Origin: Halorussus halophilus
Lineage (GTDB): Archaea; Halobacteriota; Halobacteria; Halobacteriales; Haladaptataceae
Reading direction: 5' to 3'
Assembly (NCBI RefSeq): GCF_008831545.1
Contig: NZ_CP044523.1
Location: 1,364,001 to 1,428,000, forward strand
Length of the DNA: 64,000 nt
In this document: positions 13,168 to 36,798 of the stretch, in pieces
How positions within the stretch are numbered: position 1 is the first letter of the stretch
Layout of the letters: the number at the start of each line of letters is the position of its first letter
Program-made: the position numbers and the translations under genes
Notes under the pieces: model-generated
Told to the model about the DNA's origin: nothing
The model's input: only the letters and a program-made list of their open reading frames with translations
Databases searched by the model: none

Positions 13168-13409
13168 ATCCGTTCTACTCGAACCTATCGGGATAGGCGC
13201 AATAAGCGTTATTGGCCAATAGTTGGAATATTTTGCCGATTCACTGTTCTCTAAACCAGTATTTTCCGGTGTTTCAGGCCCTGTAGCGTGTATTTATTGG
13301 TTTTTATACTATTCGGTCTCAGAGAGGGTTGCTTCACGACTCTCTGTTGCTCTGATTCTTGTGGTGCTGTCGCTCGGCGACGGGCGCCTCGCGGGAACTG
13401 CAAGAATAC
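13168..13409. other. Non-coding leader and degenerate repeat copy
   Basis: AT-rich at 13185-13320 (probable promoter of the KaiC-like gene). From about 13320 it becomes like the repeat units that follow: ctctgattcttgtgg at about 13347 resembles cttttgattcag and cttctgattcctc in the next units. I see no gene. Confidence 0.35.
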
Positions 13410-13690
13410 GGAAGAGTGGGAGTCGAACTCGACACCCTTCTGATTCCTCTCGTGTCTCACTCATTGGCGAGCGACTACAAAGTCGCTCGCCGGACGTTCG
13501 ACACAGAGCGGAAGGGGCGGGAGTCGAACTGGGTCAGACGTTCCGGGCGTGCGGCCCTCCGGGCCGTTCCGGGACTGCGACTGACTTGCTCGACTCCCTT
13601 TTGATTCAGTTCGTCGTTCGTGTGTTGGCGAGCGCCGCTACGCTCCGCTCGCCGAGTACTCACGACGAACGGAAGGGGCGGGAGTCGAAC
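13410..13690. repeat. Three copies of a tRNA 3'-end-like 20-mer
   Basis: The 20-mer ggaaggggcgggagtcgaac occurs at 13510-13529 and 13671-13690, and a diverged copy, ggaagagtgggagtcgaac, at 13410-13428. On the minus strand each reads like a tRNA T-arm and acceptor 3' end. The third copy is the 3' end of the tRNA-like element at 13671-13753. Between copies lie strong hairpins: 11 bp stem with 4-base loop at 13466-13491, 8 bp stem at 13627-13653, and cggccc/gggccg near 13551-13565. The layout resembles repeated target-site remnants left by integration at a tRNA. Confidence 0.55.
13466..13491. terminator. Perfect 11 bp hairpin
   Basis: ggcgagcgact pairs perfectly with agtcgctcgcc around an acaa loop. 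No T-run follows, so it may be a processing or structural element in place of a terminator. The histidine kinase gene to its right also reads leftward, so its transcript would run through here. Confidence 0.3.
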
Positions 13691-13753
13691 CACGCGAAGC
13701 CTGTCAGGCTACCACCGACGACCGGCGGCACTCTACCACTGAGCTACCCTTCC
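13671..13753 (-). tRNA. tRNA-like element, probably a degenerate tRNA
   Basis: On the minus strand 83 bases fold like a tRNA. A 7 bp acceptor (GGAAGGG/CCCTTCC), TA at 8-9, a D arm (GCTC-AGTGGTA-GAGT), a 5 bp anticodon stem (CCGCC/GGTGG) and a long variable hairpin (AGCCTG-A-CAGGCT) are followed by a T loop TTCGACT. However, the seven-base anticodon loop GGTCGTC lacks U33, and the T stem (CGTGG/CCCGC) is largely unpaired. I know no haloarchaeal tRNA beginning GGAAGGG, so I give no anticodon. It could be a pseudo-tRNA or a tRNA mimic of mobile-element origin. Confidence 0.4.
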
Positions 13754-35460: not shown

Positions 35461-36798
35461 ATGACTGGCGCAGACCCACGCGGCCAAGTTGAAACCCTTC
35501 GCTCCCGACTCAGCGGCGACCACCCCGACAAAGACCCCGAAGTCCCCCTCGAAGCAGACCGCCATCATCTCCTCAAGATGGTCGAAAACATGCGACTCAT
35601 GCAGAGCGAAGTCGGCGACCACCGGCAACTCAAACTCCTCCGGCACTGCCGGCGCATGGCCTTGCTCGTCGACTGGCCGAGCGTCCGTGACTTCCGAGAG
35701 AACGACGAAGCCGAAGCCGCTGGCATCGACACCGAAGACGACATCGAAGCCCTCCTCAAAGACGTCGGCCTCCTCGGAGCCACCCTCGAATACCGCACCG
35801 CTGCCGAGGCGATAGTCCGCTGGATCCACGACGAGTACACCAACGAGCATACGAATCAGGACTACCGGACTGCGATCCGTTCGTTCGGCCGCTATCGGTT
35901 GAAACGCGACGAGACTACGGACAGTCTCGCGTGGATTCCGACGACCACCAGCAACGACTTCAATCCCGTTCCGTCGGAGCGTGACCTCCTCAAGTGGGAG
36001 TACGACGTCGAGCCGATGGTCGATGCCGCGCATAACACACGGGACAAGGCGTTGTTCGCGGTGCAGTTCGAGGCTGGGCTGCGTGGGGGTGAACTCTTCG
36101 ACTTGCGAGTGGGTGATATCTATGACTCCGAGCATACTGTTGGACTGCATGTGGACGGCAAGCGTGGTGAGCGAACGATTCATCTCGTGATGTCCGTGCC
36201 GTACCTTCAGCGCTGGCTGAACGACCATCCTGGCAGCGACAACGACCACCTTTGGTCGAAGCTCTCCAAGACAGAGCGGCCTTCCTACAACTCCTTCCTT
36301 GGGTACTTCAAGAACGCCGCCGGACGTGCTGACGTCTCGAAGGCGGTGACGCCGACGAATTTCAGGAAGTCGAATACGCGCTGGCTCGTCTTGCTCGGGA
36401 TGAGCCAGGGTCGTATCGAGGACCGCCAAGGCCGCAAGCGCGGCAGCGATCATACGCGGCGGTATCTTGCTCGCTTTGGTGAGGAGTCGAACGAGCGGAC
36501 GTATGCTCGCCTGCACGGCAAGGATGTTGAGGTCGAGGATCCGGAGGAAATCGGACCGATCGACTGCCCGCGATGTGACCGGGAGACGCCGCGCAATCGC
36601 GACCGGTGTATGTGGTGTCATTTCGCGCTGTCGCCCGATGCGGCGTCCGAGGCCGAGCAAAAGCGGAAGGCAGCGTTCACGGCGGTCTCTGACCTCACCG
36701 AGGACGGAGAGATTGATGCTGGTGAGGCGGCGGCGACGCTGAACGAGTTGATCAACGACCAGGTGCAGTCGGCGTTGGACGAGCAGCGTCATTCCTGA
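35461..36798 (+). CDS. Tyrosine recombinase (integrase) with zinc ribbon
   Basis: A 445-residue phage-integrase family recombinase. The N-terminal SAM-like DNA-binding part spans about 40-160, and the catalytic domain about 180-345 with Arg in EAGLRGGELFDLRVGD (about 207). The second box reads TPTNFRKSNTRWL, where the usual HxxR is NxxR-like, then GSDHTRRYLARF with the probable nucleophile Tyr near 335. A C-terminal zinc ribbon (CPRCDRE...CMWC, about 372-394) and a helical tail follow, as in many haloarchaeal integrases. It marks the start of the accessory region. No intact tRNA target is next to it, and I could not find paired att repeats. Confidence 0.85.
   Translation: MTGADPRGQVETLRSRLSGDHPDKDPEVPLEADRHHLLKMVENMRLMQSEVGDHRQLKLLRHCRRMALLVDWPSVRDFRENDEAEAAGIDTEDDIEALLKDVGLLGATLEYRTAAEAIVRWIHDEYTNEHTNQDYRTAIRSFGRYRLKRDETTDSLAWIPTTTSNDFNPVPSERDLLKWEYDVEPMVDAAHNTRDKALFAVQFEAGLRGGELFDLRVGDIYDSEHTVGLHVDGKRGERTIHLVMSVPYLQRWLNDHPGSDNDHLWSKLSKTERPSYNSFLGYFKNAAGRADVSKAVTPTNFRKSNTRWLVLLGMSQGRIEDRQGRKRGSDHTRRYLARFGEESNERTYARLHGKDVEVEDPEEIGPIDCPRCDRETPRNRDRCMWCHFALSPDAASEAEQKRKAAFTAVSDLTEDGEIDAGEAAATLNELINDQVQSALDEQRHS

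Follow-up and report, generated by a model that had tools for sequence, protein, structure and literature searches.

What is the role of an RNA gene that folds like a tRNA and lacks an anticodon, and why is its 3′ end found again beside it among strong hairpins? These questions are raised by a locus in 64,000 nucleotides of the Halorussus halophilus genome (contig NZ_CP044523.1, positions 1,364,001 to 1,428,000; hereafter the window). A preliminary description of this DNA had regarded the arrangement as unexplained by normal genes, and our analysis upheld that observation as a whole and showed it to be more than a local oddity. The gene without an anticodon (TLS), its tail copies and the hairpins of the window all lie on the minus strand. 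TLS is followed by a trailer hairpin, an antisense tail, a core hairpin and a perfect 21-nt tail copy; beyond these come another trailer hairpin, another antisense tail and a tail copy that is degenerate, as listed here.

13670-13753, minus strand: TLS, tRNA-like RNA gene without anticodon (ARAGORN, Rfam tRNA model, fold, relatives)
13670-13690, minus strand: tail T1, G53 through discriminator, of which the units carry copies (repeat search, block boundaries)
13610-13669, minus strand: trailer hairpin 1, inner stem 13627-13634/13646-13653 (sequence; arms partly inverted repeat I1)
13588-13602, minus strand: unit 1 anti-tail T′, GGGAGTCGAG, antisense to the tail (paired with T2 in the predicted fold)
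13530-13587, minus strand: type-A core hairpin of unit 1, GTCGCA...CCCGGAACGGC...GCCGCACGCCCGGAACGTC (relatives)
13509-13529, minus strand: tail copy T2, 21/21 identical to T1 (repeat comparison)
13444-13508, minus strand: trailer hairpin 2, with a perfect 11-bp stem inside, 13466-13476/13481-13491 (sequence, fold)
13429-13441, minus strand: anti-tail T′ of unit 2, abutting T3, with no core after it (repeat family D2, fold)
13409-13428, minus strand: tail copy T3, degenerate and one base shorter (repeat comparison)

The tRNA-like element proposed from the sequence is real. ARAGORN called 13670-13753 as tRNA-Arg(tcg) and the Rfam tRNA model scored it at 40.2 bits, the weakest of 45 tRNA matches genome-wide, while the scan of the whole window at the Rfam gathering threshold listed no family, TLS included. 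Its minimum-energy fold was predicted to be a cloverleaf with a 7-bp acceptor stem, a 4-bp D stem, a 5-bp variable arm and a G discriminator at 13670, in which a 7-bp stem with a 5-nt loop occupies the position of the anticodon arm. The acceptor, D and T arms of an elongator tRNA are all present; a 7-nt anticodon loop with U33 and a conserved anticodon are not. The loop had already been described as lacking U33, which agrees with the fold, and just 2 of 70 distinct TLS copies had a loop of 7 nt whose second base is T, compatible with U33. The T stem, in contrast, had been described as unpaired, the sole factual slip in that account, as it forms 5 bp with one bulged U (GCG-U-GG/CCCGC) that is kept in 27/27 aligned relatives. 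The genome also holds 44 ordinary tRNA genes including another tRNA-Arg(TCG), so that TLS is not required for decoding. This second gene and the unconserved anticodon rule out a plain tRNA-Arg(TCG) and bear out the earlier judgement that the element is not an ordinary tRNA.

Searches with the exact T-arm pattern recovered 57 stretches from the named-genome collection, all haloarchaeal, and the same pattern with up to two mismatches was present in 144 of the 392 genomes of the order, a tolerance at which a few of the 144 matches may be other tRNAs. The reversed T-arm control pattern gave one match among the matches listed (G182). Sampling of 31 genomes across the phylum produced two TLS matches, both inside the order and one from the window's own genome, and TLS copies were spread over several families of the order. 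Among the 70 distinct sequences extracted (79 to 117 nt), the acceptor, T and D arms were near-invariant, and the region from the D arm to GGCTTCGCG was free to vary in length and sequence with folding kept (mean z of -2.6 versus shuffles; loops mostly 3 to 6 nt). When 27 TLS sequences were aligned, 98.9% of cells paired and ten cells had changed on both sides versus 3.2 in shuffles, a number reached by 0/500 shuffles, with all ten falling in the anticodon-like stem. The acceptor and T stems were identical in 27/27 aligned sequences, an invariance that is silent on pairing and a strong sign of constraint. The earlier suggestion of a family of structured RNAs agrees with the tRNA-like part and its conservation in many haloarchaea.

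The discriminator varied between copies (G 47, A 22, T 1; n=70), so an aminoacylation identity is not evident. Serylation was considered as a role and found to be unsupported under general aminoacylation rules, as the long variable arm is confined to one type and the discriminator is variable. A shorter type of the window's TLS family also occurs elsewhere in the genome, and single genomes possessing both types, the long sdhA-linked and the short, were those of Halegenticoccus tardaugens (L035, L048) and a Salinarchaeum MAG (L045, L071). Halorientalis copies (L040, L050, L055, L062, L075) have TGCCAGAAA in common within the replacement of the anticodon arm. Carriage of TLS by phages or plasmids was rejected, with no match in the phage collection and a single plasmid record. 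That record is plasmid pHOS100 of Halorientalis sp. IM1011, where a TLS-like match (L295, 4001-4092) lies approximately 600 nt before an orc1/cdc6 gene and overlaps no annotated protein gene.

A gene that we take to be sdhA, recognised from the protein sequence rather than by a family search, lay upstream of TLS on the same strand within 400 nt in 26 of 57 named loci and at any distance within the locus in 33/57; Haloferax species have TLS beside sdhA. A TATA-like box stood 29 to 35 nt ahead of the TLS start in 22/57 loci. As a general reading, TLS as the 3′ end of an sdh messenger was rejected on these two counts, that for sdhA within 400 nt and that for the box. TLS behaves like a separate gene and is probably transcribed independently.

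Repetition of the TLS tail in the window was largely as first described. A 20-mer reported to recur twice was exact at 13510-13529 and 13671-13690, but the third copy at 13409-13428 proved to be degenerate. The strong hairpins between the copies were also recovered, one with 11 perfect bp (13466-13476/13481-13491) and the other with 8 bp (13627-13634/13646-13653) within a stem that by eye is longer. The unit at 13506-13615 had a predicted folding energy of -47.6 kcal/mol (z -3.3).

The same arrangement was surveyed in four haloarchaeal genomes by searching 500 nt behind each tRNA gene with the gene's own last 21 nt, counting copies that were on the same strand and outside any other tRNA. The tRNA sets consisted of unique ARAGORN calls (44, 48, 56 and 46; the 56 include the TLS of genome G024 itself, and genome G201 was fetched incompletely). 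A downstream copy of the own tail was found for 68 of the 194 tRNA genes (10/44, 10/48, 26/56 and 22/46 per genome), 55 of which had no more than one mismatch. When tails of other tRNAs were tried instead, 13 of 3880 tests were positive, which indicates that tail copies are not due to chance, and own tails searched upstream gave 5/194. A canonical anticodon conserved everywhere, with copies arising by chance, was the alternative state of affairs that we checked, and it did not hold. No tail copy was counted among the 32 tRNAs of G399, a genome from outside the order, after three flags were set aside, one with a 13-nt query and two that resemble adjacent tRNA genes. Haloarchaea have tail copies as a general feature, and in the four genomes scanned between about one fifth and one half of the tRNA genes are followed by a unit. 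Behind TLS, copies were found at 8/15 short and 8/38 long loci (4 of 57 unscored); in comparison to 68/194 tRNA genes this is no clear enrichment, and the idea of TLS as a safe landing site for units was rejected.

Comparison of tRNA and copy across 72 units showed a sharp block of identity of 21 nt from G53 to the discriminator, with the 5′ side near chance. The copies were usually spaced approximately 100-220 nt apart with no evident gene enclosed. The space between tail and copy is taken up by a trailer hairpin, the tail antisense and a core. After de-duplication and a 21-nt filter 71 units remained, and the antisense arm ranked its own tail in the top tenth of approximately 95 substitutes in 38 of these, and best outright in ten. 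In 62/78 units the antisense continued as antisense of the upstream trailer, and among 37 differing units 21 had an antisense with a closer fit to the real tail than to the copy (reverse in 2, equal in 14). Selection for pairing with the tRNA is not proven by this better fit, since a T1 frozen by selection predicts the same, and we looked for compensatory change or co-evolution between antisense and copy and found none.

Related cores occurred at different tRNAs, with 120 cross-tRNA pairs versus 0 in shuffles, although in a few of the 120 both members come from one TLS, entered once as TLS and once as an ARAGORN tRNA call. Core-sharing involved 55 of 90 units, and 31 of the pairs fell within one genome. 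The type-A core of unit 1 was found in 18/18 genomes of the window's genus and has relatives adjoining Val, Ser, Pro, Arg, Asn, Tyr and Asp tRNA genes. One DNA search returned matches to TLS, cores and ordinary tRNAs together, and no count is drawn from it. Thirty core loci were fetched, 26 of which lay beside a tRNA or TLS: 23 behind an ordinary tRNA and 3 behind TLS (L296, L297, L301). At L313 a weak match touched a tRNA. The type-A cores at L312, L317 and L323 had no tRNA gene detected within 1.5 kb and are possibly stranded units or stand behind intron-bearing tRNAs missed by ARAGORN. Genome G006 had by far the most type-A core matches in the genus (23), three of them within approximately 690 bases, the first behind tRNA-Arg(GCG).

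Units move or turn over, and their gain or loss is precise at the tail. Two related genomes of the Haladaptatus family differed by exactly one unit at the TLS tail with both flanks matching. In the filled site the trailers after T1 and after T2 were alike, which leaves some latitude in where the unit ends. Within one genus, two genomes had mostly different occupied tRNA genes (4/10 shared), and their tRNA-Lys(TTT) cores differed. The preliminary description had offered a scar of repeated integration as one explanation, and the precise coming and going of units, together with related cores beside different tRNAs, makes that explanation half right; what did not stand is a scar of the usual tyrosine-integrase kind. 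An integrase-linked element of the same genome (G000:C1:683163-703832; L359, L160), whose integrase adjoins tRNA-Leu(TAA), duplicates 53 nt rather than 21 nt; its far repeat begins in the anticodon loop, lies 20.6 kb away and is preceded by neither an antisense arm nor a core. At 36007-36471 the plus strand of the window itself matches Phage_integrase (PF00589), and no ordinary tRNA gene was called in the window.

Several readings compete with that of TLS as a conserved mimic and of its units as mobile insertions. It is very improbable that TLS is a decaying tRNA pseudogene, perhaps from tRNA-Ala, with which it has the most sequence in common. Such decay would be consistent with the unconserved anticodon arm and with tRNA-Ala(UGC) as the nearest ordinary tRNA in its own genome, but not with acceptor and bulged-U T stems that are identical throughout the alignment, a middle that varies with paired changes or a presence across families of the order. 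TLS could instead be a processing signal, otherwise functionless, at which RNase P and tRNase Z cut to free a neighbouring RNA, a reading that gains from the features presumably read by both enzymes being kept in TLS. The t-element before 5S rRNA in Haloferax is a known substrate of both, according to the available text of PMC4326828. We nonetheless consider this reading distinctly unlikely, given that no 5S or other Rfam family adjoins TLS in the window, that the genome's own 5S genes (C1:3327981 and C4:4577) are not next to TLS, that the sequence just upstream of them differs from TLS and resembles it less (score 18) than tRNA-Ala does (41), and that TLS often has a TATA box of its own.

For the units, attachment-site scars of tyrosine-integrase elements (proviruses or integrative plasmids) deleted to approximately 100 bp would account for the tail copies, and the genome has ten PF00589 matches. 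In the available text of PMC8371274 archaeal integrases prefer tRNA 3′ ends, and in that of PMC7921747 Haloferax gibbonsii has partial tRNAs beside full ones with integrase elements. This origin is unlikely in comparison to mobile insertion, as the tRNA-Leu(TAA) element has a different repeat and architecture, unit copies run from G53 to the discriminator, and conserved cores at many tRNAs are not expected from random deletion. An integrase gene would not fit in the space between unit repeats, and mobilisation in trans is possible. Alternatively, the unit may be a working RNA part in which the antisense, in the precursor, pairs with the real tail and trailer or with the downstream copy, forming a switch for tRNA maturation or the end of transcription. 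Continuation of the antisense into the trailer of the upstream copy, its better fit to the real tail and the strong predicted folds speak for this switch, which we judge rather unlikely, since antisense and copy showed no compensatory change, the better T1 fit is also expected from T1 frozen by selection, and within one genus few occupied tRNA genes were common and the Lys-TTT cores differed.

The reading of TLS as a non-decoding mimic rests on its sequence, its predicted fold, its conservation and the TATA box in many relatives. A full unit consists of a trailer hairpin, a host-tail antisense, a core and a 21-nt host-tail copy, and related cores stand beside different tRNAs, each with the matching tail. 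On balance we favour, with some reserve, a conserved non-decoding tRNA mimic whose tail has been colonised by mobile, tail-copying mini-units that treat the mimic as a tRNA gene. The ends of TLS would be trimmed by RNase P and tRNase Z like those of a tRNA, and the RNA may then act through its acceptor and elbow, holding a tRNA-binding enzyme outside translation. A unit would insert at the 3′ end of a tRNA-type gene, where staggered cuts at G53 and the discriminator could duplicate whatever tail is met and leave the tRNA gene intact; insertion with this duplication is favoured as target duplication best explains both the use of any tRNA and the intact tRNA. The antisense arm might then be adapted to the host through palindrome correction, which is a guess, and recombination between tails would add or remove units, with the unit machinery presumably handling the mimic as one more tRNA gene. 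Against insertion, no transposase, integrase or reverse transcriptase was linked to the units, three of the 30 core loci were near no detected tRNA, and the antisense arm is partly host-specific, which is unexpected under simple insertion and forms the weak point of the mechanism. The 3′ edge of the copy is also the mature tRNA end, so an origin at the RNA level is equally possible.

An order-wide tRNA fold from which the decoding part is missing suggests an as yet undescribed task for an RNA of tRNA shape, and both mimic and units are open to study in tractable haloarchaea such as Haloferax. As a broader claim, which we regard as possible rather than probable, the units would be a new kind of haloarchaeal tRNA-gene element (tail, antisense tail, core, tail) that settles behind almost any tRNA gene, duplicates its tail and rebuilds the antisense, accompanied by a separate RNA gene dedicated to the anticodon-less mimic. 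TLS and units were not found in the literature searched, most subscription journals being outside its reach.

Units and tyrosine-integrase attachment sites have in common a tRNA 3′ part directly repeated downstream of an intact gene and bounding an element, while units differ in their close spacing, 21-nt repeat, antisense arm, shared core and lack of an evident gene inside. Partial tRNAs next to full ones in H. gibbonsii LR2-5 are given without explanation in the available text of PMC7921747, which does not mention a hairpin, antisense arm or shared core as in the units described here; tail-copying units may explain them. The Haloferax volcanii t-element is, like TLS, a haloarchaeal RNA with a tRNA-like acceptor and T arm and a presumed substrate of RNase P and tRNase Z, whereas TLS has, besides a complete D arm, a variable arm or extra hairpin and does not stand beside 5S. 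A compact T-arm-like hairpin (GCGGTTCGATTCCGC) was seen directly before 5S rRNA at L363 and L364, as in the Haloferax t-element. Integron attC sites are imperfect inverted repeats with a variable end, lying between repeated sites that begin with GTT; the units share this layout, although the consensus differs and neither an integron integrase nor a cassette gene was linked to them. Casposons and CRISPR spacer integration both insert beside a fixed sequence with target duplication, casposons using tRNA 3′ ends, and it is this target duplication that the units resemble, with a different duplicated length.
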